A stretch of DNA of 64,000 nucleotides from the NCBI RefSeq assembly GCF_026210795.1, contig NC_089430.1:5580001-5644000 (forward strand), in the 5' to 3' direction. Position 1 is the stretch's first letter. Each line of letters opens with the position of its first letter. The notes below the pieces were generated by a model, which worked only from the letters and a program-made list of their open reading frames with translations, did not search any database and was not told the origin of the DNA. This DNA comes from Rhizophagus irregularis (Eukaryota > Glomeromycota > Glomeromycetes > Glomerales > Glomeraceae). Below, in pieces: positions 3,545 through 40,225 of the stretch. The translations under genes were made by a program, and so were the position numbers.

Positions 3545-3553
3545 AAAAAATAA

Positions 3554-5707: not shown

Positions 5708-5760
5708 TTTCTATAAATTGTTAGATATTTACTGCGGATTTTAAGCGTTTTTAACAATTT

Positions 5761-6480: not shown

Positions 6481-6485
6481 CAAAA

Positions 6486-7440: not shown

Positions 7441-8845
7441 TGACCCGACCCAAAATTTTCGAGTCAATCTGACAGTATAATGATTATAACTCACTAATAA
7501 TTACCAAGTTACTCTAGTTTTTAATGAATGATTTTGTTGATCCAATTTCTAACAATATTTAAAATAATTTGTATCTAATAAAAAATAAATAAAAATAAAA
7601 AAATAAAAAAATACTATAAATAAAAACAAAACAAAAATTAAGTATTAATAAAATAATTTAAATATTAAATTCCATTAAATAGATATGTTTATTCAACTTC
7701 TATAGATATAATAATATACTAATAATTAAAAGAATCAAATCATTTAATTTTCTAATAATATTTAAAATAAATTATATTTAATTAAAAAAAAGAATAAAAC
7801 TAAAATAAAATCAATGGCCTATTAATAAAATAATTTTTCAATTGCTAAATTGCATATGTAATGTACTAATAATTAAAAAATCTAATTTTTTGACAATTTT
7901 TAAAATAATTTGTATCTAATAATAAAAAAAATATTTTAATTAATAAAATAATTTTAAATACCAAATTACATTAAATACCAATATGTTTATGTAACTTTCA
8001 CATATATTTAATTTACTACTAAATACTAGATAGGTATATTTATATATGTAATTTCCACATATATTTAATATACTAATAATTGAAAGATCCAATTTTTTGG
8101 CAATTTTAAAAATAAAAAAACCAAAAGTCAATATTTTTTCAATAAACCAATTTTTTAAATGCCAAATAACATTAAATAAAATAGTATATTTATTATCTAC
8201 AAAGATAGTATATAATGAATTGGATAATTAAATAATTTATTTATATATTCTTAATGTAATATATATATATTATATTAAAGTAAACTTCTATAAATAGCAT
8301 GTGATGTATTATTTTATAACAATTAGAATAATAAATTAAATTATTAATTAATTATATCAATTATAAATTTTTGTAAATTTTCTTTACAAAATTTTCGTAT
8401 AATATTTATAAAACACAATGTTCATATAACTTTTATATATTAAATAAATAATAAAACAATATCTAGTATTCTGATTTAAAAAAAAACAAATGTCTATTAT
8501 CTGATTAAATATTTACATTAAATTGCTGAAAGCTAAACTGCTTTAGCTTGAAATCAAGTAATTACAAATAGAAAGATAAAATATATATAGCTTGTTGGAT
8601 TGTTTTTTTGAGATATTTTAAATGGTAGCAGTTTTATACCTTTAGGATTAATAAATAAATAATAAAATATTAACATTTTCTTGAAATAATTTTTAATATT
8701 TTTAAATATTTATAAATGCTAATAACTTTTATTTGTTGATAATAGAAATTCCACTATTTAGCATATTTTGATGAGACAAAGACAACAAAATATAATTTAT
8801 TTATTTATGATTACTGAATAATTAGTTAAAATATTTACATTCATA
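7441..8845. other. AT-rich intergenic DNA, nothing recognised
   Basis: Very AT-rich DNA with short reading frames only. I see no domain, RNA gene or element boundary. Confidence 0.6.
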
Positions 8846-19640: not shown

Positions 19641-20009
19641 TGACGTTTTATTCCTTATTCTTAACTCTAAAAAACATGTGATTTAGAATTTAACTGCATT
19701 TTAAATACAAAATTTTTTGCTCTGGACTTACAACGGTTTCTGTTTGCGTTTCCTATTTTTTTTTTAAAAAAAAGGAGATTGGTTTTAACCAAATTTATAA
19801 AAAAAAAAAAGTTTGCATGAGCGTTACTAAATTAAAATGAAATTAATGTTTCATAAATAAATTTATTTTGACATACCGTATCTAGTGATTTTTTATCAAT
19901 TTTCAATAAACAATTCGTTCATATTTTTTATTCATTAGAATAATAATAATATATTTTAACTTAAATGTGAAAACTTTAAAATGAAATTAAAATCCTTTTG
20001 TTTTTTGTA

Positions 20010-22604
20010 CAGTTCACCCTCGCTATAGTGAAACTCATGGGCTGAAAACTAAAATTCACTATAGTAAGGGAATTCACTAATCACGTATAGTAAATAAAGA
20101 TAAGATTTTCACTATATTAAAAATCCATTATTATCACGTGATGTATATTATATAGTAATAATTAAAAGTCACGACAACTAAGCTTATTTTTATAAAAAAC
20201 ACATGCAATAAAATAAATTTTCTTTGTTTTTTTGTAAACCTGCGCATAAATACTTTTTATATTTATGTCACTCAAAGATTATTACTTTATTAAGTATGAT
20301 AAACGCAATACTGCAAATCTGTAATACAATCATTTATAAAGACTATCCTGATCGATTTGGTATTCAATAAAACCTTCACACTCTTCATGATTATAAAAGT
20401 CCCCTTCGTTAAAATATAAAGTTTCAAAATTAATATTATCAACGTCCATAATATTATCTTTATCACCTATTCTATTCATATTATTATTATCAACACCATC
20501 AACGCTATCATTAGTTTTAACAAATAGGTCTAAACTCATTTGCTTCTTTGAAAAAAAATTATTTCTGTAAACTTCCCTTCTAGCTTTTTTCATAGCTTTA
20601 AAAGCACCTTTATCAATAATATCTTGACTTTTATTTTGTTCTAAATAAATAAAAATTTTATCAAACGCGGCCAAAACTTCAGAGCTAGATACTGAAGTAA
20701 TTTCCCTATCACTTTCATCATCAGAAATGGAGTTATTTTCTTTAAGAATGGCAACTATCTGTTCTTCAGTTAGTGTCTCACCAGTAATTTCATTCTCCTG
20801 ATCTAATTTAATATATTCTTCAGCGGTAAGGGGATGTATATATTCAAGTTTATCAATTAAATCTTGGATTTCTTTACGTTCATTCTCTTCACGTTCATTC
20901 TCTTCTATTTCATCTTGAGAATCTGTATCATTTAATGGCAAAATTCCTGCATCTCTCCAGCAGTTAAATATAGTTTGAGAAAGAACTTTATCCCAGGCTG
21001 ATACCACATACTTAATAGCTTTTTTGATATCAATTGGTGACTTACTATTGCCTGTTTCTTGTTGATAATCAAAGGCCTTGATATGATTTTTAAGGAGCAA
21101 TTTTCGATAGTGTGCCTACAAATATATAAATATGGTAAGTTTAATTTCGTAATAATTAAAAAATTGCATTAAAATTTTTCAGAATTAATTACCTTAAAAC
21201 TATTAATAATACCTTTATCACAAGGTTGCAGATGCGCGGTTGTGTTAGAAGGTAAAAACTTAATTTCTATATTAGTCAATTCTACACCTTCGTATAAAGC
21301 ATGAACAGGAGCGTTATCTACAAGAAGAAGAATTTTTCTTCCTTTTAATCTCATTGTTGCATCAAATTGACGAATCCAATCATTCCAAATGGAGACTTGC
21401 ATCCAAGCTTTTATATTCCAGTAATATTCTACCGGTAAAGATGACTTGGGTAAGTTTTTCAAGGGACGAGGGTTTTTGTATTTATGAATAAATACTGGTT
21501 TAAGCTTTTCTCTACCAGTTGTATTAGAACAAAGAAGAATTGTCACACGATCTTTTGATTGCTTTCGTCCAGATATAGGTTTATCAGAAATCGTTCTTTT
21601 AGATTCCATTTTCCAATACAAACCAGTTTCATCACAATTGAAAACATCATCAAGACTATATCCACGAATCAAATCTTGAAGCTCTTTCCTAAATTCATCA
21701 AGTTTCTCAAGTGGTGCACTTGCAGCCTCTCCTTGCTTTAAATAACAAGAAAGATTGTGCCTTTTTTTAAATCCATTAATCCAACCATTACTTCCTTTAA
21801 AATTTTCAATCTTATATAAAGATGCAAACATCATAGCTTTTTTATGTAAAACTTGATCACTAATATCAACACTATTTTCCAAAGCTTTTAATACCCATAA
21901 CGTAAGTGCTTCTTCAATTTCTGGAAAAATCACCCTAACTTGTCTTTTACCTTTAGCTTCAGGTACTTGGGGATCAATTTCAAGCCATTTTTGTGAATTT
22001 TTTAACGTACTACTAATACATCCTTCACTAACATCAAATAATTTCGCTAGTTCTTTATTTTTTAGAGAAGGTTCAGTAACTTTTTTAAGACATATTTCAT
22101 GTTTTTGGGCAAGAGTCAAGGAGGCTCTTTTTGGCAAAGTTTTTTCTTGGGATATTATACCTTTGCCTATAGTTATTTGAGTACACGAAGTTCTTTTATT
22201 TTGAGTTTTGGGCATAGTGTGTGAAGAAAATAATTAACTAGATCAGGATTACTTTTATTATAATCAAAATAAAATATGATACTTTTCCTTTTTAGTTTAA
22301 ATCACGAAAAAATTCTAGCTTCTAAAGGCAAATTCAAATTCAAATAAATTATACGTGATAAAAAATTCACTAATTAATTGTGTAACATTTGAAAAATTCG
22401 TTATAGCAAAAATCTTTACTATATCAAGGGTCATTTTATTAACACTGGTTCCAGTATTTAAATTCGAATTACGAGATACAGAAAATTTATTATAAAATTC
22501 ACTATATCAAGAATTATTATTTATAAAAAAATCCGTACCTAGACTTTTCTTCATTATAGTGAGTTATTCACTATATAAAAATTCACTATAGCGAGGGTGA
22601 ACTG
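20010..22604. mobile_element. pogo/Tigger-type Tc1-mariner transposon, apparently complete (2595 bp)
   Basis: Perfect 23-bp inverted ends begin CAGTTCACCCTCGCTATAGT, and a TA sits on each side (20008-20009, 22605-22606), as expected for this superfamily. Both subterminal regions hold several copies of TTCACTATA-type motifs in both orientations, likely transposase binding sites. One spliced transposase gene fills the interior on the minus strand. Ends and gene are intact. Confidence 0.93.
20330..22215 (-). CDS. pogo/Tigger-like transposase (CENP-B/DDE_1 type, 2 exons)
   Basis: Exon 1 is 22215-21193 and exon 2 is 21115-20330. The 77-nt intron (GTAATT...TTGTAG) joins phase-0 codons ...INSFK and AHYRKL..., giving 602 aa. 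Residues about 30-85 are a CENP-B/Psq-type helix-turn-helix (LTLAQKHEICLKK ... NKELAKLFDVSEGCIS). A Tc5/CENPB second HTH follows (about 95-165, ending GWINGFKKRHNLS). The DDE_1 core shows FNCDETGLYW, LLLVDNAPVH and LQPCDKGII, the three acidic residues of a DDD triad. The C-terminal 200 residues are acidic and not conserved. No lesion is visible. Confidence 0.92.
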
Positions 22605-22606
22605 TA

Positions 22607-23985
22607 CATCATTTTTTTCATCATCACTTTTTCTTCAATATATATTAACCTACCATCATGCATAAAGCTTAACATATTTTAAACTTAAAAGTAAGCGTAA
22701 GCTTTAAGCTTAATATGTAATGTTATAAAAATGCTTGCATTAAACTAGCCATATATTGAATTTGGTTAAAGTTAGACATACACAGACTTTTCAGTATTCA
22801 TTTCTCCATGCTAAAGAGTTCGCCAATTTTTAAAATATAAAAATAATGAGGAATAATTACTTTGAACATTATTCCTACAACGAATAACCAACCAACAAGA
22901 GTATTTATAACTCTGCTTAGCAGTACTTCAAATAATCAAATTTTGACAAGTTCCTTCAGACATAAGATTCAAACAATTCCTGTTTGATATTGCAAAGCCA
23001 ATAATTGGGTTAACCTACTTCTTTTACTCCAACTAGATAAACTAATTATTAGAAAAAACTATTTGTATACGATTTTGAAGAATATTGTATTTGTTTTTTA
23101 TGTATTTGTGTTAAATATTATTTATAAACATAAATTGAGATATATAGTAAACTTTATTTGACAAAATAAATATATTATTAACTTTAGACGAGTTGTTTTA
23201 TAATATATAGTAAATTAAAAAAGGAGACATTCTCAATAAAAGATGTTAATATTTTTTCATCAAAAAATAAAAATTATAAATTTTATTTGCAGAAGAAAAT
23301 GAATATGATTGTTGAACATGGTAGTAGAATATTTGTTTATTTGTATTGATATATATTTTTTCATCAAATAAAAATTTTCTATTTTATAAAATTTATTTTT
23401 TTTAGAGAAAATAATGGGTGGTATGACTAAATAGTGATGATCGATAACAGTGCCTAAGAGACAAGAGAGGTGGAGAAGAAAATTATGATAATTTAAAAAA
23501 TAATAAAGAGATTTTTTTGTTCTAAAATAGTATAGAATAGATAGTATAGAATAGATAAGAGTAGTGTATGCAATATACTGATAACAATGATAAATTAATT
23601 TAAGGTGAATGATGATAATTGATATGTCAGATAGGTCATATTGACAAAAGTTGAGTTGTTTGTTAAACATAAATAAGATATTGAAGTTATATTACTATGA
23701 CTTAAAAAATTAGACAAGTAGATCAATTTGAGTAACAATATTATAATAATCATTAATTATCATAATTTTAATCAAAATTATACAATATTACACCACATAA
23801 AATGGACAAATATGAAACATTACAATATTGTTCTATTTCATAATAATGAGTTAGACTGACAAGTTGTGAGCCATATCACATAGATTTTCTTGTATTTTTT
23901 TATCCCATATTTTATCATTCCATATATGGAAAAATGATTCAGTTTTTGTCAATGATTTTTCACTTTGATATCTCAATGTGTCAGT
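22607..23985. other. AT-rich intergenic DNA, nothing recognised
   Basis: No gene or repeat could be supported. A minus-strand frame at 23260-23670 is Ile/Tyr/Phe-rich, as random AT-rich DNA would be. Confidence 0.5.
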
Positions 23986-23986
23986 C

Positions 23987-25031
23987 CAAGGGCGTTCTCA
24001 AGCATCTCCCTCAATTAGACCTGATAGTGATGTCATTGTGCTCAAGTATCACAATCAATGGCGAGATCAATAGAATTATAAGCTCGATTTAGCTTGAGCA
24101 TGCCTCTTTTATAGTTTAACATAAATTTTTTAAGCAACAGTTTTTTTTTATGATAACCAATTTTATAGTTTTCGACATGCCTAATAAAAAATTCAATAAA
24201 AAACCTCAACCAGTTGCTGAAGTTTCAAACCCAATTTTTAATGCAACCACTTTAAATGATTTTACGAACTTGCAACTTTTTTGCAACAGCAAAGTCAAAT
24301 ATTGGCTCTAAATGAAGCTATACGACAAGAAAAAGTAAATACATATTCTTTTTAAATGTAATATAGGTCTTTATTGATTTCTTTTTTATAGGCATCTTCT
24401 TCCATTGATTGTAATAATCCTGTCGCTATTTCTCCTGATTATGCAACTTCAACTTCAATTCCACCTACACCAATTCGTGCTAGCAAGCCATCAAATCGAT
24501 GGACATCAACAGAAATTCGGATACTTATTAAAGAGGTTAAAGAACATCAACAAGCTTTGCAAAAAGTTAAAGATCCAAGGGAAAAAGGCCGAATTTGGGA
24601 TAATATTGTTTCTAATATACAATCTTCTAATGTTGCAAGTCTCGTTTTAAAAGAACGTTCTAAAGCTTCTATTCAACAAAAGTGGGACACAGTTTTTCAA
24701 AAATATAGAGAGTACTTTCTATAATTTGAGTAAAAGTTAAAAGATAATTCATATTTGTGTCAAAGCCTCTATTATTTCTTTTAAAATTTTCTTGCATTAA
24801 GAATAGAATAATAATTTTTTTATATTGTGAAAGAGCTTGCTGAGAACTCATTTTTGTCATAAAAAAATAAAGTAAATTATTGAGCATCATCTATCAATTG
24901 AAGATCATTGAGGAAAAAAGGTGGTTTTTAGCTCGCTTGTTGATCATCAAAATAAGAAACTCTTTGAAACTTTTTTGACCAATCAGATCATTCATCAGTC
25001 TATCAATTGAGGTGTTTGAGAACGCCCCAAG
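23987..25031. mobile_element. Decayed hAT-like element or MITE around a Myb/SANT pseudogene
   Basis: The left end CCAAGGGCGTTCTCAAGCAT (23986 on) and the right end, read on the minus strand from 25031 (CTTGGGGCGTTCTCAAACAC), are inverted and about 80% alike over the first 25 nt. No flanking direct repeat was found, so the superfamily is a guess from GGGCGTTCTCAA-type ends. The interior contains a Myb/SANT-like pseudogene and no transposase. Confidence 0.4.
24178..24723 (+). pseudogene. Myb/SANT-like DNA-binding protein, frameshifted
   Basis: Exon 1 starts at ATG 24178 (MPNKKFNKKPQPVAEVSNP). A T-run near 24277 appears one T short: the frame breaks there, and the next frame continues as LQQQSQILALNEAIRQEK up to a GTAAATAC donor. 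After an acceptor (TTTTTTATAG) the second exon encodes a Myb/SANT-like domain, SNRWTSTEIRILIKEV ... SIQQKWDTVFQKYRE. It then runs into a possible donor (GTACTT) with no recognisable continuation. This could be a sequencing error in a homopolymer rather than true decay. Confidence 0.6.
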
Positions 25032-25720
25032 TTATACTATTTACAAGAGATATTTTTTTATTTAAGTCCCTCCTAAACCATTTTACCAATTTATTGTTAC
25101 TAATTTATTTTTACCATCATTAATTAACTATTTTTACCATCATAATTAACATGAATACATCTGAGAACTACCCTGGTCAAAATAGTAAGCCTTACTTTTT
25201 AAGTTCTTAAAATTTCTTTGGAATATTATATTATTTTCTTGCTTTTTGGAATTATTTTGACCAGTAATATTATATCTAACTACTATTGTAACTCAATGAT
25301 ATTTTTAGTCCTTATTTCTTATATGACAAAAAGTAAAAAGGTATCATATTGTGGGTTTTTGAAAAGTTACCGTGATATTATTGTTACTTTAACTTTCTCA
25401 GACAAATGGGAAGAGCTTGATAATACTTGGATTACTCGTTTTTTGCATGAAGGAATATATTCCCCTGGCTTTAAAGATAAGGTGCATTTTTTTTATTTTG
25501 CAATGGGTGGACAATCCCTATGTTAGATTTATTTGATTTTAGGGGAATTACTGTTTCTGACAACCTTGGTAACCACCCCAAGCTCTCAGTTCAGGTGTCC
25601 TAACATTGTTGTTGATTAAAGCCTGCTAATTCTGGAGGAGGAGTTGGCTATGTACCTTCTTTTGTCACTAAATAAAAAATCTTAATGCACTACTAACAAT
25701 CTCTTTCTTATAACAGATAA
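25032..25720. other. Gene-poor stretch with a possible exon remnant
   Basis: A 102-residue open frame at 25218-25526 is hydrophobic at first and then reads DKWEELDNTWITRFLHEGIY, less random than its surroundings. It may be an exon of a neighbouring decayed gene. No family was recognised. Confidence 0.3.
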
Positions 25721-26720
25721 CTACAGAACATTCACGTTATGCAAAAACATTGCAAATATTCTGGAAAGGAATTATTAAGGATTATGAAAAAGAAAAAGAA
25801 AATCTAATTTCATCTCATCCAGAAGCAATAATTGAGATTCCTGCCACCATTTCTGTTAAAGAAGAACATTGTAATAAGACTACTAAGAAAAACATTAAAC
25901 TAACTAACTACTGTTGTGATATTCTTAAAGAACTTGATAATAAATCTAATATCCATCCATTTTACAAATATTATGAAATGGAAGTTTCAGATAAGACTAT
26001 AAAAAATCCAATGGATCTATTTACTATAAATTCAAAATTAGAAAATAATCAATACAGAAGTACAGAAGAATTTGAAAAAGATATTCGTCTTATATTTCAC
26101 AATTGTTATACATATAATGATGTAGGAAGTGAAATATATTGTTTGGGAGAAGAATTAGAATCAGATTTTAATAAAATATGGAATGAAAAACAAAGGGAAA
26201 GATTAAAAAGAGTACGAGATACTGATACTAATTCATCTGGTAAATTAAAATATTTTCATGATTTTTTTGCATTTACAATATATTATTAATTCTTTATATA
26301 TAACAATTATTTATTAGAACTTGTAACAAAACAAATTCGAATTTTAGACCAAAATAAAGATAAATTAGTATATAGGCAAGTTGTAAATGATGCTTTTCTT
26401 ATTGCTTCAGCATATGAAAATCTTGTTGCAGGTAATCTTATACCTTTTATTGAAATTATAAAAACATTTCTATCAACAAGATCACAAATGTCATTATCAT
26501 CTGCAGATGAACCTGTTCTTCAGGCAATTGTTGAAAGCCTTTTACCACTGAAATATCATATTCCTGGACTTTCACTTGTAATGGATGGCACAAAACCAAA
26601 AGGATTTGGCCATTTTGGATATTCTGACATTTTTGTTTTTAAAGAAATAGGAGATAGTATGTTAGTTTGGAATTGAAGTACATATCATTATTATTTATTT
26701 ATTTTTTACTAAAAATAGAA
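25721..26720 (+). pseudogene. Bromodomain protein with PD-(D/E)XK-like C-terminus, frameshifted
   Basis: An exon opening after an acceptor (CTTATAACAG, 25711-25720) encodes ITTEHSRYAKTLQIFWKGII and then a bromodomain (about 25905-26200). Its acetyl-lysine-pocket Asn lies in NCYTYN and its ZA loop in NPMDLFTINSKL. An intron at 26240-26317 (GGTAAATT...TTATTAG) restores the frame, and exon 2 carries QAIVESLLPLKYHIP, LSLVMDGTKPKG and GYSDIFV. A small indel just before 26671 shifts the frame; past it the other frame reads LELKYISLL. An Asp in a strand followed by E-x-K fits a PD-(D/E)XK nuclease core, but this is inference. Bromodomain assignment is confident. The upstream exon(s) were not found. 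Confidence 0.7.
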
Positions 26721-27071
26721 ATGATTAGTTAATAAAAATATTTTATAGACAAAAAAAAATAAATTGACAAGATATTTAATGTTCAAAAACAAATTTTGTT
26801 TTAAAAATAAATGATTGACAAATAATTGATTAAAATTTCAGCCCACATTATAATCATGATGATTGACCAGCAATACACATCTTATATATCATTGACACTT
26901 GACAGAACAGATATTTATTATAGTATTAGCTTTATAACTTTATAAGCATAAGTATCTATGTATATAACACTAGTCGAAAAAGGAATATTCGGCCTTAATA
27001 CAATTTGGCCTATATTCGACTAGAATTAATAAAATTCGACTTCAATTAGTAAAGATTTACGATTAGACATA

Positions 27072-27595
27072 CACAGTGAAATTCGATAAACCGGATATTT
27101 GATAAACCGGATTTAGGCCTAAACCGGACTTTTTTGCTGGAACCAAATCACGTATATTAAAATAGGCTCGATATACCGGAGTTTACTAGTAAAAGCTCGA
27201 TATTCGCTATAACGGATCAATTTTCTAACCAGCTATAGTAAAAATGATTCGATGAACCGGATCACGTGACTTGTAACCAATAAAATTTAAGTAACGTGAT
27301 TCGGTAAATCTTAAATTTGGCCGGAATTATAAAAATCTTAATTCCGGCTGAAGTTAAGTATTACTTATATATTCAATTAAAATATTTTATATTCATTTTC
27401 ATGACCTCTATAACTTAAAACTAGATGAAAAAATCAAATTATAGTGTATATTAGTTTTATTAGCATGAAAATTTTTTAAAAATTCAATACAATAGATTTT
27501 CAATATATCGAAATTTTTTCGCTAAACCGGATATCCCGATAAACCGGATATTTTTAGTGGAACCGATAGATCCGGTTTATCGAATTTTACTGTGT
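27072..27595. mobile_element. Pogo-like MITE nested in the CACTA-like element
   Basis: The ends are CACAGTGAAATTCGATAAAC (left) and CACAGTAAAATTCGATAAAC (right, complement). Both continue as CGGAT, and both are flanked by TA (27070-27071, 27596-27597). Subterminal copies of GATAAACCGGAT repeat inside each end. Length is 524 bp with no coding frame. It is probably mobilised by a Tc1/pogo-type transposase, but not the one at 20-22 kb, whose ends differ beyond CAGT. Confidence 0.8.
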
Positions 27596-27694
27596 ATATT
27601 CAACCTAGTTGAATTATGTTAATCAAACGTTATGCGTTACACGATACGCGTATTAAAATAAAAGTTTAAAAAAGGATGATCCTTTTTTAAACTT

Positions 27695-27855
27695 TTTTAA
27701 TTTTCTTCCTTCCCTCCTCGCCCTTTCCCTTCCTTCGTTCCCCTTTTCCTTCGTCCCAGTTTCTCTTCTTCCCCTTTCCCTCCTTTCGTTCTCCTTTCCC
27801 TTCCTTCGCTTTTCCCTTCCTTACCCTTTCCCCTTTTCTTTCGTCACTTATCTCC
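27695..27855 (+). promoter_or_regulatory. CT-rich (polypyrimidine) tract before the micro-exon array
   Basis: About 160 nt of nearly pure C/T on the plus strand, with recurring CCTTCG/CCCTTTCC. CT-rich tracts often precede fungal transcription starts, so it could be the promoter region for the array. It also has the composition for triplex (H-DNA) formation. A second CT-rich block lies inside the array at 29336-29400. The promoter role is inference. Confidence 0.4.
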
Positions 27856-29330
27856 TTCGAAGGTATACATATACCTTCGAATTTTTACTTTTTTTAACGA
27901 AATGTTTCACTAACGTTTTCGTTTTTTCTTTTTTAGATTCAAGACGCCCATTTAAAAGGGTCGGGTGGGCTTTCGAAGTATGGAAAAACCAAGTTTCGTA
28001 AGTACGAAACTTGGTTTATTTATTTATTTGTTTAATTTAGTATGAATGGTTACTAACCGTTCTTTTATTACTTTTTTTTAGATTCGGCCATTCGGGTGGG
28101 CTTCCGAAGTATGGAAAAACCAAGTTTCATAAGTACAAAACTTGGTTTATTTATTTATTTTTTTTTTTAATTTAGTATGAACGGTTACTAACCGTTCTTT
28201 TATTACTTTTTTTTAGATTCGGCTGTTCGGGTGGGCTTTCGAAGTATGGAAAAACCAAGTTTCGTAAGTACGAAACTTGGTTTATTATTTTTTTTTTAAT
28301 TTAATATGAACGGTTACTAACCGTTCTTTTTTTACTTTTTTTTTAGGTTCGGCCATTCGGGTGGGCTTCCGTGTTCCGAAGAACGGGAAAATTCCAAAGA
28401 TTCGTAAGAATCTTGGATTTTTTTTTTATTTTTTAAAAAAATATTATAAACGGTTACTAATAACCGTTCTTTTCTATTTTTTAGGATCGGGTGGCTTCCG
28501 AAGAACGAAAACCCAAAGATTCGTACAAATCTTCAATCTTTTTTATTTTTGATTATTACGAATGGTTTACTAACCATTCTTTCTTTTTTTTTATAGGTTC
28601 GGGTGGGCTTCCGAAGAACGAAAACCCAAAGATTCGTATGAATCTTCAATATTTTTTATTTTTGATTATTATGAATGGTTTACTAACCATTCTTTCTTTT
28701 TTTATAGGTTTGGGTGGGCTTCTGAAGAATGAAAACCCAAAGATTCGTAAGTACGAATCTTCAATCTTTTTTTATTTTTGATTATTACGAATGGTTTACT
28801 AACCATTCTTTCTTTTTTTTATAGGTTTGTGAGCTTCCAAGGATCGGGAAAAGGAGAACTGAGGTTCGTTACAAACCTTGGATTTTTTTTTAATATTATG
28901 AACGGTTTCTAACCGTTCTTTTTCTTTTATTTTTATAGGTTCGGTTGGCTTCTGAAACCAAGATTCATAAGTACGAGTACGAATCTTGATTTTTGTTTTT
29001 TTTTATTATTTTGGAACAGTTTACTAACCGTTCCTTTCTTTTTTTTATAGGTTCGTCCGTTTGGGTGAGTTTCCGAAGAACGAAGAATGGAAAAAACTAA
29101 GATTCGTAAGTATTCCGTATTACGAATCTTAGTTTTTTTTTCTTTTTTTATTCTTATTATTATGAACGGTTACTAACTGTTCTTATTCTTTTTTTATAGG
29201 TTTCGGTGGGCTTCTAAAGAACGAAAAAGAACTAAGATTTGTAAGTATTACGAATCTTAGTAGTTCTTTTTTTTAAAAAAAAGAAACGTTATACTGTATT
29301 AACGTTTCTATTTCTTTATTTTGTAGGAAC
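27855..29330 (+). repeat. Tandem array of about 12 micro-exon/intron-like units with paired hairpins
   Basis: Units of about 105-150 bp each hold a GC-richer core (TTCGGGTGGGCTTCCGAAG...) of 28-61 nt after a T-run ending in AG, then a 5'-splice-site-like sequence in the loop of a hairpin (arms ACCAAGTTTCGTA / TACGAAACTTGGT in the first units), a T-rich stretch, a second hairpin enclosing a branch-point-like string (GAACGGTTACTAACCGTTC), and the next T-run-AG. Core starts are 27937, 28082, 28217, 28347, 28485, 28597, 28708, 28825, 28939, 29051, 29200 and 29327. Donor-like strings after the cores are GTAAGT (5 units), GTAAGA, GTACAA, GTATGA, GTTACA and ATAAGT (2 units). The cores are not multiples of three and give no sustained protein when joined. 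Confidence 0.85.
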
Positions 29331-29410
29331 TCCGGGGCTTTCTTTCTCTCTTCCCTCTCACCTTCCCTCTCCTCTTTCGTTATTCCCCACCATTCCTCTA
29401 TCTCTTACTT

Positions 29411-29960
29411 TTGTAGGATATTTTCTTGGAATTTTCTTCAGCTTCAGTAGATTTCTTTAGTAGAACGTGTAGATCAACGTCTTTGAATTGGTAAGTTTTT
29501 TTTTTTATTATTAATTTTGATTTTTTTTTATTGATTTTTTTTATCTTATAATTTGTAGAAATCAACAGTTTCGCACTTTCCGGATCGAATTGGTAAGTTT
29601 TCACTTAAAAACTTTTTTTAAAAATTTTTTTTTTATTATTAATTAATTTTTTTATTATCTTATTTTGTAGTTTCGGCTTCCTTATCCTGGATGATAGGAT
29701 CGATTAGTAAGTTTCAAAACGGTTTGTTTTGAAACTTTTTTTTTAAAGTTTTGTTTTTCCAAATTTTTATTTCAAATCGGACTTGGACTTTATTTTTTTT
29801 CTTTAGTTATAGTAAGACGACTTTTAACATTCGTTCTTTTCAAGATGCGATCATGTGATTGTGAAATTGTGTATAATTATTTTATTTATACATTAGATAG
29901 ATGCTAATATACATGTACTGTATATTTAAGTGTTTTAATAAATTAATAAATTTGAAATTG
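29411..29960 (+). ncRNA. Candidate 3' exons of a spliced, probably non-coding transcript
   Basis: After the array come segments with strong splice borders: 29417-29490, 29559-29592 (34 nt), 29671-29706 (36 nt) and from 29807. Introns are 29491-29558, 29593-29670 and 29707-29806, with GTAAGT donors and TTTGTAG/CTTTAG acceptors. The last intron again folds its donor: arms AAGTTTCAAAAC / GTTTTGAAACTT around GGTTT. Joined segments have stops in all three frames within about 110 nt. AATAAA-type signals occur around 29936-29950. I infer a multi-exon RNA driven from the CT tract at 27.7 kb; there is no proof of transcription. Confidence 0.35.
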
Positions 29961-30543
29961 AACTAAATTAATAAATAAATATTGAGACAAAATTTTGTGT
30001 CGAATAATCATCCGAACTGCACCTCAATTTGACGCCACTATTAGACCTAAATTCAACCTAAATTCAACCTAAATTCAACCTAGTCAAATTTAGGTCGAAT
30101 GGTAGTGTAGTGATGGCCGAATTTTCTTTCCAAATTTGAGACGATTGGCACCCTAAATGCGCCCAAAAATTCGACCTCAATTTGACACAGGTTAGATCAT
30201 CATTCGACCTATATTCAACCTGGTCAAATTTAGGCCAAATTGTCTTTTTTCGACTAGTGTAATAATGAACATATAATGTTATAGCTCAAAAAGTTTCACC
30301 AATTTTCTTAATATTCGTTGTTATTTAAAAAAATTCACACATGTTTAAATTGAATATGATCAGCAAATAATTTTTATAAAAAAATTCAGCCCACATTACA
30401 CAAATCACTAATTAGTCATGATCAACATAATTATGCATAAATATTGTTCTTCCATTTATAAAGCATCAGGCGAAATTTTTTTTCTTACCACTGCAAATTT
30501 TTTTTTAATTTCTTCCTATGAATTTTATTTGAAAAAACTCTCA

Positions 30544-33500
30544 ATGGATTCTTTTATCAAAAGTGCTAAAAAGCTGGTTAATTCATACGATTGTAATTGT
30601 GATAATGAATGTAATGCAAAATGGTTTAAACGAAATTTTAAAAATTGGACTAGTGGTAATAATAATATTGATAAAGTTATTCAAGATACTCAGCTATCAG
30701 AACATAATAATTATAGTGTAAAAAATGCATTAGAATGGATACCTTATGATAAACTTTATGATATTAAATATATCACAGAAGATAATAAGTTTGGTAAAGT
30801 GTATAGAGCAAATTGGATTGATGGATGTATATATAAATGGGATAATGATAATCAAAATTTGATAAGAAAAGATCAAAATATGTTTGTAATTCTGAAAATT
30901 TTAAATAATCCAGCAAGTATTACATTAGAACTTATAAATGAGGTATAATGAATTTATTAAAAGTTTCGTTTTTTGTTGAATTGTAATATAAATGATCACA
31001 TTATACTGTGCCCCATTTGATGAAAAAAAATTGCTAGTCGTTTTAAATAGTAAAAAGTTGAAAATTTTATTTCTACTAATATCCCTAACTAATATATTGT
31101 AGATTGCAGTATTTTATAAAGCCTATGAAGTTTATGGAATAACTCAAGATCCAGAAACCAAGAACTATATGGTAATTTTGGATGATATATGTGAAAAATG
31201 TAATGAAATGTGTAATTCAATACATTTTCAACGAAATTTTAAAAATTGGATTAATGGTAATAATGATATTGATAAATTTATTCAAAATACTCAGCTATCA
31301 GCTCATTATTATAATGTAAGAAATGCATTAGAATGGATACCTTATGGTAAACTTTATGATATTAAATATATCACAGAAGATAATAAGTTTGGTAAAGTGT
31401 ATAGAGCAAATTGGATTGATGGATGTATATATAAATGGGATAATGATAATCAAAATTGGATAAGAAAAGATCAAAATATGTTTGTAATTCTGAAAATTTT
31501 AAATAATCCAGCAAGTATAACTTCAGAATTTATAAATAAGGTATAATAAATTTATCAAAAGTTTCATTTTTTTTTTGTGAATTATAATATAAATTAATCA
31601 CATTTTACTATGCCATTTTATGAAAAAAAAGTTGTTTTAAGAAACAAATGGTTAGTAAATATTTTATTTTTACTAATATTTCTAACTTTAATATACTGTA
31701 GATTGTACCTTATAAAGTTTATGGAATAACTCAAGATCCAGAAACCAAGAACTATATGGTGGTTTCGGATATCAATAAATGTGGAATATGTTATAATACA
31801 TGTAATTCAATACATTTTCAACGAAATTTTAAAAATTGGATTAGCGGTAATAATGATATTGATAAATTTATTCAAAATACTCAGCTATCAGCTCATAATT
31901 ATTATGATGTAAGAAATGCATTATAATGGATACCTTATGGTAAACTTTATGATATTAAATATATCACAGAAGTTAATAAGTTTGGTAAAGTGTACAGAGC
32001 AAATTGGATTGATGGATGTATATATGAATGGAATGATGAAAATCAAAATTGGATAAGAGGAGATCAAAATATGTTTGTAATTCTGAAAATTTTAAACAAT
32101 TCAGCAAGTATTACATTAAATCCTATAAATAAGGTATATTTTTTGTGAATTATAATATAAATTAATCATTGTACTATACCATTTGTGGAAAAAAAACAAA
32201 TATTTATTTTTACTAAGATTTTTATCTTTAATTATTACATTATAGATTGCAGTATCTTCTAAAGTTTATGGAATAACTCAAGATCCAGAAACCAAGAACT
32301 ATATGGTAGTTTTAAAAGATGTATGTAAAAAATGTAATGAAGCATGTAATTCAATGCATTTTCAACGAAATTTTGAAAATTGGACTAGTGGTAATCATGA
32401 TATTGATAAATTTATTCAAGATACTCAGCTATCAGAACATAATAATTATAGGGTAGAAAATGCATTAGAATGGATACCTTATGATAGGCTTTATGATGTT
32501 AAATATATTACAGATGATTATATGTTTGGCAAAATATACATAGCAAATTGGATTGATGGATGTATATATAAATGGGATAATGATAATCAAAATTGGAAAA
32601 GAGAAGATCAAAATATGTTTATAATTCTGAAAATTTTAAAAAATCCAGCAAGTATTACATCAAAATATATAGATTTAAATAACCCAGCAAGTATTACATC
32701 AAAATATATGGATAAGGTATAATAAATTTATCAAATGTTTCATTTTTTTTTGTGAATTATAATATAAAATAATCACATTGTACTATGCCATTTTTGTGAA
32801 AAAAAAAAGTTGTTTTAAGAAACAAATGGTTGAATATTTTATTTTTACTAATACTTCTAACTTTAATATATTGTAGATTGCATTATCTCATAAAGTTTAT
32901 GGAATAACTCAAGATCTAGAAACCAAGAAATATATGGTAGTTTTAAAAGATATATGTAAAAAATGTAATGAAGCATGTAATTCAATGCGTTTTCAACGAA
33001 ATTTTGAAAATTGGACTAGTGGTAATAATGATATTGATAAATTTATTCAAGATACTCAGCTATCAGTTCATAAGGATAATGAAATATCACATGCATTAGA
33101 ATGGATACCTTATGATAGGCTTTATGATGTTAAATATATTACAGATGATTATAAGTTTGACAAAATATACAGAGCAAATTGGTTTGATGGATATATAAGT
33201 TGTTGGTACAGTAGTTATAATGGAAATCAAAATTGGAAAAGAGAAGATCAAAATATGTTTATAATTCTGAAAATTTTAGATAATCCATTAAAATTTATGA
33301 ATAAGGTATAATAAGTTTCATTTTTTGTGAATTACTATAATGTACCATTTGTGGAAAAAAAATTGCCAGATGTTTAAAAAAATAAATAGTTGAAATTTTT
33401 ATTCTTACTAATATTTTCTAACTTTAAATACATTATAGATTGCAGTACCTTCTAAAGTTTATGGAATAACTCAAGATCCAGAAACCAAGAACTATATGGT

Positions 33501-35293
33501 AGTTTTGGAAAATATATGTGAAAAATGTAATAAAGTGTGTAATGCAATTCATTTTCAAAATAGATTCATACATTGGACTAGTGGTAATGATGATATTGAT
33601 AAATTTATTCAAGATACTCAGTTAACAGCACATACTTATAATGAGGAACAAAATGCATTAGAATGGATACCTTATGATAGATTTTATGATATTAAATATA
33701 TTGCAAAAGGTGGGTTTGGAAAAGTATATAAAGCAAAATGGGATGATCATAATCAAAATTGGATAAGAAAGGATCAAAACATGGTTGTAGCTCTGAAAAG
33801 TTTAAATAATTCAAGAAATGTTGCATTGGAATTTATGAATGAGGTAAGCTATTTAACTATTCTTAATAAATATTTAATTTAAGTATTAATACTTATTTAT
33901 AATATTTATAGATTACATTACATCATAAAGTAAATTTGCATAAACGCTTTATTAAACTTTATGGAATAACTCAAGACCCAGAAACGGAAAATTACATTAT
34001 GGTTTTAGATTATGCAGAAAATGGAAGTTTGCGAAATTATTTAGACACAAATTATAGTAAATTGAGTTGGAGTGATAAGATTAATTATTTACATAGCATT
34101 GCACATGGACTTAAAGATATTCATGAAATAGAATTAATTCATCGGGATTTGCATATTGGTAATATATTAAGGCTCAAAAATCTCACTTGTATAACTGATA
34201 TGGGATTATGTAAACCTGCTGATTGTAATACATCGGAAAATGCAAAAAGCAAAATATATGGTATTTTACCTTATATTGCCCCTGAAATTTTACGTGGACA
34301 AAATTATACAAAAGCTGCAGATATTTATAGTTTTGGTATAGTAATGTATGAAGTAATTTCTGGATTACCTCCGTATTATGATGTAGGTCATGATATAAAT
34401 TTAACAATGAAAATTTGTAAAGGACTTCGACCAAGATTTAATATTAAAGTGCCTCATTTGATTGTGCATTTAATTAAAAGATGCTTGGATGCAAATCAAT
34501 CAAAACGACCAAATGCAGAAGAAATTAAAAAAACTTTAAGTAAATGGCTTAAAGAATCAAGTGATTTATTATATATTAGTAATCTTAGTAATTATACAAG
34601 TATTCAAAAACAAATTAAGGAAATAGATGAAAGTTCATCAAATAGCAGTATAACTTCGACAAATTTAGGAATATCTTATGTAACAAATTCAGAAGCTGTT
34701 TATGCCAGTAGATTGCTTGAATTTAGTAATCTTCCTGAGCCAAAAAATTCCGATGATTATTATGAAGTAAATGATAATATAATTAGCATGAAATTTTCAG
34801 GTATTCATTAATAAAAAAAATTTAATACTAATTGTAAAAAATACTGATAAGGTTTAATTTTTTGATAGAATCCTTACAAATTGATATTTCTCAGCTGAAA
34901 AATAGTAATTCTTTTGAGCTAAAAAATTCTGATGATAGTTATGAAAAGAATGATAATATTAATATGAAACCTTCAGGTATACTTTTTAAATAATTAATAA
35001 AATCAATTATAAATAATTAATAAATTTTTAATTCATTGAATAGAATCCTTACAAATTGATATTTTAGTACAGTCTCCTGAACCAGATAATTCTGATGATT
35101 CTTATGAAAAAAATGATAATATTATTAGTATGAATTCTTCAGCAGGTATTGATTAATAAAAAATATTTATACTGTTATTTAAAAAAAAAACACTAATTTC
35201 TTTCATTAAATAGAATCACTACAAATTGATATTTATCAATTGAACACTAGTAAAGATGGTAATTATTCTTTAGATATGTATAAAAAAAACTAG
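30544..35293 (+). CDS. Protein kinase gene with tandem duplicated N-lobe exons
   Basis: Exons: 30544-30942, 31103-31540, 31702-32133, 32246-32716, 32877-33305, 33439-33843, 33912-34800, 34869-34976, 35044-35145, 35214-35293; all joins keep frame. Exons 1-6 each encode a Cys-ribbon-like segment (CxxC pairs, e.g. CKKCNEAC), WTSGNNDIDKFIQDTQ, LEWIPY and kinase strands with the VAIK-type Lys (ILKIL). Only exon 6 keeps a good glycine loop (GGFGKVYKAKW). Exon 3 has an in-frame TAA at 31924. Exon 7 holds the C-lobe: IHRDLHIGNIL, DMG for DFG, APE and DIYSFGIVMYE. Exons 8-10 are a duplicated tail. A plain kinase needs exons 1 or 6 plus 7. The ATG at 30544 was chosen because the preceding 42 codons look non-coding. 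Confidence 0.75.
31103..33843 (+). repeat. Five tandem copies of an intron-plus-exon unit in the kinase gene
   Basis: Units begin at 31103, 31702, 32246, 32877 and 33439 (spacing 544-631 bp). Each exon starts ATTG(C/T)A..., reads KVYGITQDPETKNYMVVL, and fuses directly to the ribbon and N-lobe segment. The first part is otherwise found only at the start of exon 7 (LYGITQDPETENYIMVLD). So the unit is a chimera of the exon-7 start and exon 1, later amplified. All exons are phase 0 at both ends. Five of the six N-lobe exons end in GAG/AAG followed by GTATAA or GTATAT, while the one next to exon 7 has GTAAGC. Confidence 0.9.
34869..35293 (+). repeat. Duplicated phase-1 tail exons of the kinase gene
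   Basis: Exons 8 (108 nt), 9 (102 nt) and 10 (80 nt) all start AATC(C/A)(T/C)TACAAATTGATATTT, giving ESLQIDI after the join. Exons 8 and 9 end in NSDDSYEKNDNI...S, as does the end of exon 7 (DDYYEVNDNIISMKFS). Each is bounded by ATAG acceptors and GTAT donors in phase 1. The last ends in TAG at 35291. A further AG-bounded piece from 35332 may be an alternative end. Confidence 0.75.
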
Positions 35294-35399
35294 TCAATTG
35301 TATAATATACTTATTTTGTTTATTTTTTTAGACCAGGATAGAAAATCTAAAGGCAAAGAAAAAATTTAGACCAATTATAACCTTTTGCTATTTTAGTAA

Positions 35400-36130
35400 T
35401 TAAATTTTTAAATTTTTATTTTTTTTTCGCTATTATAGTTTAAAATTTTAATTATTATTAATCTTCAGTGGAAAGGTAACAAATTTATACTTTATTATAG
35501 TTTAAAAACGGTCTTATTTTTGCTTTTCAATAATTAGTAAATTACAATTTTGATTAGTTTGATAAAGTTAAGAAGAAGAGGAATGATGGGAAGTTAAAAG
35601 TCGAAAAGGAGTAATGGGAAGATAAAGAGGAGTAATGGAAAGATGAAGAGGAGTGATGGGATATGAAAAGGAGTGATAAGAAGATGAAGAGGAGTGAGGA
35701 GTGATGGGAGATGAAAAGGAGTGATAATAAAATTTAAGATAAAAATGGAAGAATAGGAGTAGGAATAGAAATAATGATAGTTATAATTTTAAATTATACT
35801 AGCCTTATTGATTAACTTTTACGTATTTATTCATTTATTTTATATTTACTCTATTCATCAATTATATAAAAACTTTTTTAAAATCAAAATATAATTTAGT
35901 TTTGTTCTTAATGAAATTGTAATAAAATATCTATAATTATATTACTGGTAATATCTTATAATTTATCTATTTAGACCGAATTTACATAAAACTAGTAATC
36001 CATAAATTTAATAGTTCTTCAATAATACTAATTCTATATAAATACTGTATTAAACTCTTTCCGACGATCATCTTGTCCACAAATTTTTAGGAAAAAGATG
36101 AAACAAAAAACGGAAGAGGTTTTATATTAA
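35400..36130. repeat. AT-rich spacer with purine-rich minisatellite
   Basis: At about 35570-35750 the plus strand is almost all purine with GT interruptions: repeated GAAGAGGAGTGATGGGA-type units of 17-28 bp, several degenerate copies. Nothing else was recognised. Confidence 0.75.
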
Positions 36131-36271
36131 AATGTTTTTCGGAGCCAGACAAACGTCACCAACTGAATATTCTCTCTTTTACGGACGTTTCGAGACGAGT
36201 TTCGAGCAAGGACAAGAAGTACGAAGTCCGACACTTACAGAAATAGTAAAAATGCGGTTAGCGATTAAAAA
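36131..36271 (+). pseudogene. Possible retrotransposon integrase fragment
   Basis: A short GC-richer frame reads ARQTSPTEYSLFYGR. It resembles the conserved ...SPF.LLYGR segment near the end of Ty3/gypsy-type integrase cores. Flanks are unrelated AT-rich DNA and no LTRs are visible. The match is short and made from memory of the motif, so this is tentative. Confidence 0.35.
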
Positions 36272-37760
36272 TAAATAAATAAATAAATACTGTATTATCT
36301 CAATTTAATTCTGACAATTTTTTTTAAAAAATTTTATATTAGGAAAAGTTTACAAATTTTATTGAAATTGTTATTTAGTTAATTTTTTTTTTTTTTTGAT
36401 CTACTAGCGAAAATTCCATATTCAATAAAACTTACCGAAACATAAGTCATTGACATATCATCAACTTTTTATTGTAAACGTTTTTTTAGCAATATTGAAA
36501 AGGAAATTCAAAAATATTTTTCATCCCGAATTATTAAAAATAAATAATACCTTGATTGCAATATTCACGCTACATTATAAATAAGCAGGAATCGAATTTC
36601 TATAATAAATTATTTTTGGTGTACTTCAGTTAATTAAACTTTCTGAAGAAGTAAAAAGTAAAGAAATCATAATTTTAAAAAAAATAACTAGATTTATTTA
36701 TTTATTTTTTTTGATAAAACATTATTATTCAATATGGAATTAAAAAAATAATAATGATTCTCAAATAATTATTATGTAATGATCAATTTAAAGACTTACC
36801 TTAAAAATTCAAGAAATTTTTTCCCATTAATGTAATATTCGGTTACGATTAAAAATACTTAAAAATATAATTGATTAATAATAATTGTCACTTCACTTTA
36901 AACAAATAAAATTGAATTGAATATATTTTGTTACTTCTTAATGATATTCTAAATAAATAAATAAACTGAAAATATTAGTCAAATTTACAATCATATTCTT
37001 TTATTTCTTTGATAATTTAAATAGCTTGGCTTAATAGAAAAAGTGAAACGAAAGGAAGTTCAAAGATAATATTTTTTTTTAAGAAATACGAATTATATGA
37101 TTGACATATAATAATTTAAATGTATATTCACTATTTCATTGCCTCCATGCATCATAATAATCGACATCTAATTTCTAATAAAAGATAATACAAATTTCGA
37201 CAACAGGAAAATGTAATTACTGTTTTTGCATTTGTGTGAAAAAAACAATTCAACGTCACAACTTAGTATTTCTTAGGGCTATTAATAACTGTCGTTGTTC
37301 TGTTTGGCAAAAAATAAAAATATAATATCAGTTTGTTATCTAATCAAAATTTAGACACTCTTTCAATATTACAATTGTATCACCTTATAATTCTTTTTTT
37401 ACATCATCTAAAATCACATTGTTTCTTTCTATTTTTTCTAAACTTGATTCTCGCTGTTGATACCGTTGTTGCTACCATGGTCCATTAGACCATGTAGGTC
37501 CTGCAAAATTTCAAAATTACTAAATCCTCCTGGATATTAAACTGATTTATGGGAAGCTCTTTAAATACAAAGATTTAAAAATGAAAGTGGAAAAAACGAA
37601 TCTTGTCGCTAGATAAAGAAATTTATTTGATCGACATTTGCAACAATTCAATATTATCATGAACTGTATAATAACAAATGGTCCAGAAGAATCAAAGTCT
37701 AGTAAGTAATATTATATAAACATTATTTTAAACATAATCAAAAAAAAAAGAATTAAGTCA
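36272..37760. other. AT-rich intergenic DNA, nothing recognised
   Basis: No coding, RNA or repeat feature could be supported. Confidence 0.5.
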
Positions 37761-37768
37761 GATACATT

Positions 37769-38002
37769 AGGACCCCGAACAATATATAAATAGGTCATAG
37801 GAAATTGGCAAAATTTTACTATTAGCTCTACGCATTTTTTCAGGGCCGGAATTATGATAATGTCAGTCAGTTACTAAATAAAGTAATATATTTCTTACCA
37901 ACGTTATCAAAATTTATCTAAAAAAGGAAAGATTTTCATGATTATTTTAGCCTATTCTACGCGTTATTTCTTGTTACCTATTTCAGTATTGCTCGGGGTC
38001 CT
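37769..38002. mobile_element. MITE, 234 bp, with 8-bp target duplication
   Basis: The ends AGGACCCCGAACAATA and AGGACCCCGAGCAATA are inverted copies, and similarity continues to AAATAGGT. A perfect GATACATT flanks both sides (37761-37768, 38003-38010). An 8-bp duplication points to hAT-type mobilisation. No coding content. The interior carries GGGCCGGAATTATGA, a string shared with other repeats here. Confidence 0.82.
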
Positions 38003-38010
38003 GATACATT

Positions 38011-39403
38011 ACATCGATCTTGACGTTACTTTCAACAAACCTAAATTTCATCATACAGAAAAAAATTTATAATGATTACCAGAATTTTAATAAGATTTTA
38101 ACATTAACAAAATCAAATAATTTTATTTATTTTCTTTTTATTTTATATCTTAGAAGTGATGATAATTTAAAGCAATCACTCTAATAGAACTATTTTAGTC
38201 ATTTAAATAAAATCTTCTGTAATTAAAAAAAAAAGGTATTGATAAAGCATTAAACACAAGAAATTGAGCATGGATAAAAATCCATTGATTGGTTCAATTT
38301 CAAACATTGATCAGCCAATAAATTGTAAATTGTCGATCTCACGTGATATAAGAAATTACGTGGACGAAAAAAAAGAAAACTTTATTTTTCATAAATTTAC
38401 AACATTTACAATAAACAAAAAATTATTACAGTTTAACCACCAGTAAAAATAACTGTGTATATTCTCACAATATATAAATCATCCAAATTAAATCATAGAA
38501 TAATGAGAAATTATGAAAAATATAGATAATTAATTATCGTTTTCTTAAAAATTAATAGCTAATTTTTCTGTGATTCAATTTGAACAATCTTCGATTTTCT
38601 GAAAGAGAAAATGACGCTCTTTCCAATAACTAAAAATTATCATGATTCAATACGTCCATCTATAGTTATGGATATTTAAAGATACATAACCTTATTATTA
38701 CATAAATAACAAAAATATTCAGTTTGATTTATAAAACCTATTAATAATTAATTAACTAATTAATAATTAATGACTTATAAATTCTATGTAGTTATTTAAA
38801 CAATGAAAATTTATATTTTAAGGGGTTAACTTTCCTGTTTTAAGGTAATAAACTTACCATACAAAAATATTTCCACTATCTTGTTAAAAAGTCTCTTATA
38901 AAACCTCTTCATTTATTTTTCATAATTAGCTGTATCAACTGGATGAGACAACTGAATCTGTCGCTCGAGACATTAAAACTTCAGAAGGTTTAGCTACGTG
39001 AAATTAGTGAGGTATGCTGTCGTATATATGACATAACAAATTTAAATGGAGGATAAAATGATTAGCAAATTGTAACGTTTGAGATTAGTCTATGATAATG
39101 AGATGCTTAAAACTGATGCGTACGTAAGAAGCTAAAAGGTTTAGGAATTTATATGTTAAGGATTATAATTTAAAAATGATCTGCAAAATGGTAAGATTAA
39201 CGATTTGGCGATTTGACGATTTGTCCTAAATGTCCATAAAATCTTAAGGATCTTAAGGGGTATTTAATTACGTCATTATTGCTTCTATTATTTGCATCAA
39301 CTTCTAGAGAAACATATTCAGGTTTCACAACGTCATTTATCAGGATCTATAAAAGATAATCCGAAATCGAATCTCATTTGTCGTAAGAAATTGTAATTTT
39401 AAA

Positions 39404-39441
<38 letters not shown>

Positions 39442-40225
39442 TAATAATAGTAATCTATTTATATACGAATATTCTTTCGTATTCAAACAGAAACTTTTAC
39501 GAACCAATTTGTTAAAAGATATGTATAAAGCTCAAAAAAAAAAATTTCATTTAATATCAAAATTGTTAAATTTAAATTCAATATTTGCAGAACAACAACA
39601 ATATAGCAATGGAACGTAAATTTGTCATTTATTGTATGTAAATTGGTCATTTGCTTGTCATTTTTTTAAATAAAACTGGGATAATAATATAATGTAAATC
39701 AGATACTTATTTGAATATTAACTGATCGAAACTAGTACAAATTGTTTAATTTTCGTACAACTTTATACATACAAAAAATGTGCCAAATGAGCTAAATTTG
39801 AGAATGAATATTATATGGATTTTTTTGTTGATTATATATTGGATAAATTTCGGATGGAAATTTTTCATAGAGGCAATTTATATTTTTAAATATTTTAAAC
39901 AATATAAATGTAAATTTTTGTAATAATACTTTTGATAAATTAGCAGAATATTCTTATTTCATATAACACATTTTGAAAAGATTCCAATATGTTGTTGTAA
40001 TGATTATGGTAGGGATCATTTATTCATTTTATTTAAATAACGTCAACCTTTATAACGAATAAAAAATTTGATTTTTATCAAGAAGAGATTTATATATATA
40101 CTCTGTAAATAATTATGTGACTTATGTACTTTTAATATATTCTTTCTACGGTACGACATTTATTAATAATATTGTAATAATTTATAGTAATATTTTTTTT
40201 CAAAATTTATTGATGACGTCTTATA
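38011..40225. other. AT-rich intergenic DNA with a 34-nt T-run
   Basis: An uninterrupted run of about 34 T lies at 39407-39440, which could be the poly(A) tail of an old minus-strand retrocopy, but I recognise no coding sequence beside it. A short frame at 38264-38446 has no recognisable features. Confidence 0.5.

Follow-up and report, generated by a model that had tools for sequence, protein, structure and literature searches.

The window, by which we mean the whole 64,000-nucleotide stretch of Rhizophagus irregularis DNA analysed here, carries a non-autonomous CACTA-type DNA transposon filled by an array of 12 intron-like units (27856-29326; hairpin strings read by eye and then placed by script), with the features collected in Table 1. 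In every unit, a donor-like string is covered by a first hairpin (A) and a branch-point-like string by a second (B), after which comes a T-rich tract that ends in AG. The units show the element order of U2 introns, i.e., GT donor, branch point, polypyrimidine tract, and AG. The donor begins with GT in 10 of the 12 units and with AT in units 3 and 10, being exactly GTAAGT in five, and the branch point reads CTAAY in 11 units and TTAAC in unit 12. The preliminary description of this DNA had reported about 12 tandem units at 27855-29330, with cores of 28 to 61 nt, the donor string in one hairpin, and the branch-point string in another. The number, the two-hairpin layout in all units (some arms being imperfect), and the lengths of the 11 internal exon-like cores are all borne out. 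Of the borders it gave, a T-run with AG and a GTAAGT-like string, the AG is present throughout, and the donor fails at the two AT sites. What it missed was the host, the array being the inside of a multicopy CACTA-type transposon.

The splice-like strings are confined to one strand, with 5 GTAAGT, 10 ACTAAY, and 11 poly-T-AG strings on the plus strand of the array and none of any kind on the minus strand; 1,000 mononucleotide shuffles gave means of 0.55, 0.87, and 0.51 and maxima of 3, 4, and 4, respectively. RNA folding of four window stretches (introns 4, 1, 8, and 11) resulted in z-scores of -5.3, -6.2, -2.4, and -6.7, the second belonging to a unit whose stems (GAAGGTATACATATACCTTC, AACGAAATGTTTCACTAACGTTTTCGTT) are unlike those of the other units while its layout is unchanged. 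Three further GTAAGTTT donors lie 3' of the array at 29491, 29593, and 29707, one of the three having a hairpin beyond shuffles. Spliced-leader (SL) RNAs carry their donor in stem-loop I, and the units resemble them in having a donor in a hairpin, then a U-rich stretch, and then a second hairpin. An array of such RNAs donating exons in trans is nevertheless hardly credible and was ruled out, since a branch-point-like string, a T-tract, and an AG precede the next exon in each of the 12 units.

Table 1. Features of the transposon copy and its intron-like array, in window positions
Feature	Position	Strand	Remarks
Whole non-autonomous CACTA-type copy	26968..30259	+	Terminal inverted repeats CACTAGTCGAAAAA / TTTTTCGACTAGTG, 14/14 matching; duplication TAA; ~2.77 kb without nested insertion
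Left terminal inverted repeat	26968..26981	+	End search and locus comparison
Right terminal inverted repeat	30246..30259	+	End search; contig C2 5610246-5610259
Nested insertion	27072..27594		523 bases; missing from compared copies; ends CACAGTGAAATTCG / TTTTACTGTG; outside array system
Possible promoter and CT-rich leader	27620..27855	+	Also in L014 (other ends), match from 27620; promoter role putative
Intron 1	27863..27936	+	Hairpin A 27856-27881, B 27896-27923; stems differ from other units; fold z -6.17
Intron 2	27998..28081	+	Hairpin A 27988-28015, B 28044-28062
Intron 3	28129..28216	+	Donor ATAAGT; hairpin A 28119-28146, B 28179-28197
Intron 4	28264..28346	+	Hairpin A 28254-28281, B 28308-28326; fold z -5.32
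Intron 5	28404..28484	+	Hairpin A 28393-28417, B 28449-28468; donor set by reading
Intron 6	28523..28596	+	Donor GTACAA (set by reading); hairpin A 28515-28533, B 28560-28579
Intron 7	28636..28707	+	Donor GTATGA (set by reading); hairpin A 28628-28646, B 28673-28692
Intron 8	28747..28824	+	Hairpin A 28739-28761, B 28789-28808; donor by reading; fold z -2.44
Intron 9	28868..28938	+	Donor GTTACA; hairpin A 28859-28881, B 28900-28918
Intron 10	28967..29050	+	Donor ATAAGT (set by reading); hairpin A 28958-28988, B 29013-29034
Intron 11	29106..29199	+	Hairpin A 29095-29134, B 29164-29182; donor by reading; fold z -6.65
Intron 12	29241..29326	+	Hairpin A 29230-29265, B 29283-29308 (GAAACGTT stem family); donor by reading
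Downstream intron-like stretch	29491..29558	+	No clear hairpin; donor by script, acceptor by reading
Downstream intron-like stretch	29593..29670	+	Short donor hairpin (AAGTTTTCACTTAAAAACTT), also in L011
Downstream intron-like stretch	29707..29806	+	Type 2/3 donor hairpin (AAGTTTCAAAAC / GTTTTGAAACTT); acceptor by reading

The window copy has two marks of the CACTA / EnSpm group, namely terminal repeats starting with CACTA and a 3-bp target site duplication. The element borders are sharp when loci are compared, with collinear copies at loci L009, L011, and L013, and exact matches to the left repeat number 70 genome-wide, compared with 1 for the reversed control. Target duplications of 3 bp, read by eye, flank the elements of seven other loci (L009 to L013, L015, and L016), being AAC, TTT, ATT, TAT, TGA, GGC, and AAA. 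The automated end search recovered all four of the duplication-bearing loci supplied to it; it returned no ends in 10 of 17 loci and a chance pair for L029, and 3 of 85 shuffled loci gave a match. Both ends (at most two mismatches) are present in 13 of 21 sequences (the window and L009 to L028), one end in six, and neither in L014 and L026. By eye, at least 22 left-right end pairs with a spacing of 1.4 to 4.3 kb were found among the best 40 candidates of each end search. A second end family (CACTGGTC), with the duplication ATA, bounds the element of L041, and the outer ends of L014 belong to the same family. The end search of L040 and L042 to L045 found no ends; among the matches listed, L043 covers the L041 element from base 12 through the final base. 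Inside the elements, the layout is a CT-rich leader, introns, and a last exon, with AATAAA near the end in several.

Several other features were observed at these loci and in the window. The nested insertion of the window copy, where the alignment of other copies breaks between 27071 and 27595, is MITE-like, and empty copies, when compared with it, point to a TA duplication like that of Tc1/mariner-type elements. One branch-point hairpin of the L017 array is interrupted at ~1442-2638 by a long insertion with inverted repeats, and a 9-bp duplication is suggested by the repetition of TTACTAATA around it. L016 (~1124-1675, reverse complement) and L018 (~670-890) each contain a single large purine-rich exon with GAAAGGGGAAGC-like repeats, complementary in kind to the initial CT-rich leader of the elements. 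The type 2/3 array element of L041 (334-4342) appears, from the flanking frames read by eye, to interrupt a kinase-like host gene. On the minus strand of L014 (4789-7548), frames 3' of the arrays and inside the outer ends match a MULE transposase, with weak matches to FAR1 and a zinc knuckle, this stretch probably being a nested Mutator-like element. Elsewhere in the window, an open frame of 1551 aa (49354-54009) has 38 Sel1 repeats, and the DNA that encodes them is a tandem array with 38 copies of a 108-bp unit.

A profile search of the genome with tnp2 (PF02992) yielded at least 155 matches in the best 150 of 393 candidates. One of the loci, L029, contains an apparently complete CACTA element of 7.1 kb (464-7572), with TCA on both flanks by reading, whose left 97 to 112 bases are 79-80% identical and whose right 131 bases are 91-93% identical to the ends of the array elements. 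It encodes an 814-aa frame with a Transposase_21 match (PF02992, E 9.3e-12) and, by reading, a second gene in divergent orientation with a repetitive start and five introns. A search of the window copy for a tnp2-type frame found none. The window element would stand to the L029 element as non-autonomous CACTA elements usually do to their autonomous relatives, and from the ends that they have in common we infer that a transposase of the L029 type may mobilise the array elements.

The genome-wide search for further two-hairpin arrays proposed in the preliminary description, covering 146.7 Mb in 32 contigs, found many, some with the donor hairpin placed differently. One array unit as the query gave at least 226 matches in the best 40 of 526 candidates, forming about 37 clusters by eye, and a type 2/3 query gave at least 99 matches in the best 40 of 608 candidates. 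The branch-point hairpin GAACGGTTACTAACCGTTC occurs with at most one mismatch at 517 places, a count not restricted to transposons, against 0 for the reversed control. Dozens of arrays were seen, and the candidate counts suggest hundreds. Apparently lone matches lay in arrays in all 8 cases inspected (only 8 were), and introner seeds in genes were rejected on these eight.

These arrays follow three designs. Type 1, the design of the window, has its donor at the apex of a hairpin spanning the exon-intron border; counted by script with imperfect donor picking, L016, L017, L018, and L020 have 16, 17, 18, and 22 introns of this type. In type 2, the hairpin lies inside the intron from +3 (GTAAGTTTCGAAG...CTTCGAAACTT), a branch-point hairpin not being clear by eye, and type 3 combines the +3 donor hairpin with a branch-point hairpin, with stems such as GAAGAAACATTAAACTAATTGTTTCTTC. 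L014 contains all three types by reading. Types 2 and 3 have their donor hairpin in common, and CGGTTTACTAACCG is common to the branch-point hairpins of type 1 and some of type 3, so the designs are not fully independent. The layout also recurs with different stems, i.e., in intron 1 of the window, the branch-point hairpin of unit 12, the first intron of L018 (read), and the short-intron array of L014.

The placement of the hairpins was compared with dinucleotide shuffles, counting those with p<=0.05. Donor hairpins are beyond chance in 73 of 89 distinct type 1 cores, in 7 of 10 aligned window units, and in 46 of 69 type 2/3 donors, compared with none of seven introns of a host chaperonin gene and none of five of the second gene of the autonomous element, these 12 control introns coming from two genes only, named by reading. 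Branch-point contexts for which a hairpin was not required reach the threshold in 60/112 and 24/40, compared with 1/12 for the last 60 nt of the control introns; the 243 branch-point-hairpin units were preselected for that hairpin and are therefore uninformative on its frequency. CTAAY is found anywhere in 3 of the 12 control introns versus 11 of the 12 introns of the window array.

The joined exons are open from end to end in L012 (202/202 codons), L021 (151/151), and L040 (83/83), and nearly so in L015 (192/193), which would agree with a spliced gene whose short exons join into a long frame encoding a repetitive protein. In 11 joined transcripts, with script borders wrong for several units, the longest stop-free runs span 80 to 219 codons. 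These runs rarely exceed those of shuffled exons, however: at p<=0.05, one of the 17 type 1 loci and none of the 24 type 2/3 loci do so, and against exon-order permutations the respective numbers at the same threshold are 0 of 17 and 3 of 24. The exon lengths of the window leave all three remainders by three, so that one exon would be read in differing frames. We therefore regard a repeat-protein gene as very improbable. As the shuffled exons are about equally stop-free, the exons being simply stop-poor, the array transcription unit is probably non-coding.

The evidence for selection on the hairpins at the RNA level is mixed. The preliminary description had claimed that pairing is largely kept while the sequence changes between units, and the covariation test on aligned units that it proposed came out as not significant. 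Of 243 units, 38 were dropped for length; 185 combined a usable length with a predecessor, and 182 of these were distinct type 1 units. No column pair is significant under a tree-based null that allows for the relatedness of the units, the top pair belonging to hairpin A with E ~0.18, and many hairpin columns are little changed, the test having low power. One hairpin B pair changes from C-G to T-A in 28 units, which are mutually related, and the paired changes fall into few classes. An RNA stem would tolerate G.U rather than A.C on the transcribed strand, and the two mismatches were compared as a strand test; in the stems of type 1, A.C is as frequent as G.T, indicating no G.T preference. The donor G at +1 shows about the same loss as the CpG bases next to it (of the 182 units, 16 have A at +1 and 15 have T at -1), giving no sign of purifying selection on the donor in present copies. 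Both the mismatch pattern and the loss of G+1 fit neutral decay after insertion. Substitutions between the 182 units in the type 1 hairpins fall mainly on CpG, as C-to-T and G-to-A changes, which suggests cytosine methylation and deamination of the type 1 elements.

For the type 2/3 donor hairpins, a first set of 91 was reduced to 72 selected and 64 distinct hairpins, and a replication, stated beforehand, started from 174 hairpins, of which 140 were selected and 116 were distinct, 103 of them new. Counted over all positions, G.T outnumbers A.C by 43 to 16 in the 64 distinct hairpins and by 62 to 38 in the 103 new ones, with 13 loci up and 5 down. Because part of the 5' arm was predetermined by the search pattern, which favoured G.T, pattern-fixed positions were removed; at the free positions, the counts are 39/15 in the first set, 54/38 (p 0.12) in the second, and 93/53 jointly, the cells not being independent. 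Covariation between +3 and its partner had a p of 4.6e-4 in the first set and did not replicate in the second (p 0.71). As a control in the exons, C-to-T versus G-to-A changes were counted, giving 132 to 72 overall, a difference confounded by other differences at some motifs; at the motifs judged cleaner, there is no plus-strand C-to-T excess.

The results for type 1 speak for a different origin, that of a transposon with a palindromic minisatellite in it. Slippage would have amplified one exon-intron unit together with its splice strings, and the hairpins would be DNA palindromes that template switching or gene conversion keeps perfect and that have no function in RNA. The covariation that is not significant, the lack of a G.T preference, and the donor G+1 that is not specially conserved all point this way, as do hairpin changes mainly at CpG, which neutral decay predicts. 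Palindromes also need no splicing, as palindromic tandem arrays that lack donor and branch-point strings exist both in L014 and in the same window. The latter (6465-7436) is a 60-bp palindromic minisatellite (AAAACGTCAAGTCTGACGTTTT) with 9 poly-T-AG strings on the minus strand. The G.T/A.C counts of these two control arrays are 7/2 in the window, leaning as types 2/3 do but on few cells, and 11/13 in L014. On the other hand, that both are free of donor and branch-point strings counts against such an origin for the intron-like arrays. Further, the coincidence of hairpins with donors is seen in three kinds of array, and that with branch points in two, introns with differing stems among them, and types 2/3 tend to have more G.T than A.C. 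Weighing both sides, we consider this origin unlikely, though by no means far-fetched.

Hairpins could also serve as a source of RNA for silencing or as a decoy, feeding or titrating small-RNA enzymes, with splicing being incidental. The many stable hairpins per unit length would suit such a role, but the stems of ~7-20 bp are short compared with usual Dicer substrates, which are longer, and the position of donors and branch points inside hairpins is left unexplained. No Rfam match reached the gathering score in window 20000-40000, and a known RNA family was rejected on the same search, the six matches there being weak. RNAi and AGO proteins are raised as a transposon control in R. irregularis in the accessible part of PMC11075540. 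We judge a silencing source or decoy to be improbable.

The reading that we favor, with barely better than even confidence, is that a non-autonomous CACTA-type element carries the array as its cargo and produces from it a spliced, multi-intron, probably non-coding RNA with hairpins at its splice sites. A tnp2 transposase from a relative with similar ends would move the array-bearing transposon, and its cargo would be a transcription unit in which very short exons, ten to twenty or more in number, alternate with short U2-type introns. Most of these introns hold the donor in a local hairpin, at its apex in type 1 and, in the other two types, in its 5' arm from +3, and a second hairpin contains the branch point in types 1 and 3. 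RNA polymerase II would transcribe the array, and the transcript would then be spliced. The hairpins probably gate or insulate the splice sites; they might gate or slow donor recognition, and the self-folding of near-identical introns might prevent pairing or splicing across repeats. A gene-like, spliceosome-engaged transcript may keep the element expressed or let it escape silencing, a benefit through gene-like splicing which is a guess.

A spliced transcript is the best reading of donor hairpins in three array kinds and branch-point hairpins in two, all on one strand, and of the order of leader, introns, last exon, and AATAAA. It is further supported by the layout kept with differing stems, by the other placements of the donor hairpin, and by the 0/12 control introns. 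It is weakened by the covariation that is not significant, the absence of a G.T preference in type 1, the G+1 loss, and the non-splice palindromic arrays nearby, and also by the type 2/3 G.T excess, which shrank on replication, and the failed +3/partner covariation. The non-coding part of the reading is weakened by the joined exons that are open from end to end in some loci, though not beyond shuffles. The preliminary description had left the choice between a structured multi-intron RNA and splice-like DNA palindromes; the former fits the sequence best, and the covariation on which it had been based is not significant once the relatedness of the units is allowed for. We further put forward, as a doubtful extension, a class of selfish transposon whose cargo would be solely a spliced non-coding RNA, with dozens of self-folding introns presenting or gating their own splice sites, in several designs spread through one genome, and which would be kept by a gene-like transcript escaping silencing or by tying up spliceosomes.

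If the arrays are spliced, one genome would offer hundreds of natural introns differing mainly in the strength of the hairpins and in their placement over donor and branch point, and the effect of RNA structure on splice-site recognition would become directly measurable. It would also mean a transposon with splicing itself as the payload, in a fungus whose transposon load is large, and would be relevant to the ways in which mobile elements evade silencing and introns multiply. If they are not spliced, palindromic minisatellites can mimic structured introns, which is a warning.

The literature on introns and transposons of R. irregularis, introners, multi-intron transposons, structured splice sites, and introns versus silencing (including the accessible parts of PMC11075540, PMC10234402, and PMC7789003) gave no account of intron arrays in CACTA elements. 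What would be new here is a CACTA derivative whose intron-array inside was not found described, the CACTA family itself being known. The elements share with CACTA / EnSpm (CMC) transposons the CACTA ends, the 3-bp duplications, and a tnp2-encoding relative with similar ends, but their inside is an intron-like array and not a deleted transposase gene. According to the accessible part of PMC11075540, CMC-EnSpm is among the superfamilies with more expressed families in colonised roots. The array introns are short, AT-rich, and bounded by GT...AG, like the U2 introns of R. irregularis genes, from which they differ by the donor hairpin and the frequent CTAAY described above.

Introner elements are found in Micromonas, Amoebophrya, and also Dothideomycetes, and resemble the arrays in being repeated introns. 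In Amoebophrya, the introners lie within genes and have inverted repeats that can form hairpins joining the intron ends (PMC7789003, accessible part). Introners are single introns scattered in genes, whereas here the whole array is the mobile unit and its introns carry one or two separate local hairpins; single intron copies in genes were not seen among the eight lone matches. Regulatory stem-loops at 5' splice sites likewise enclose the donor in a stem or have it at the stem base; they occur at single sites within genes, whereas a mobile element carries the present arrangement many times over.
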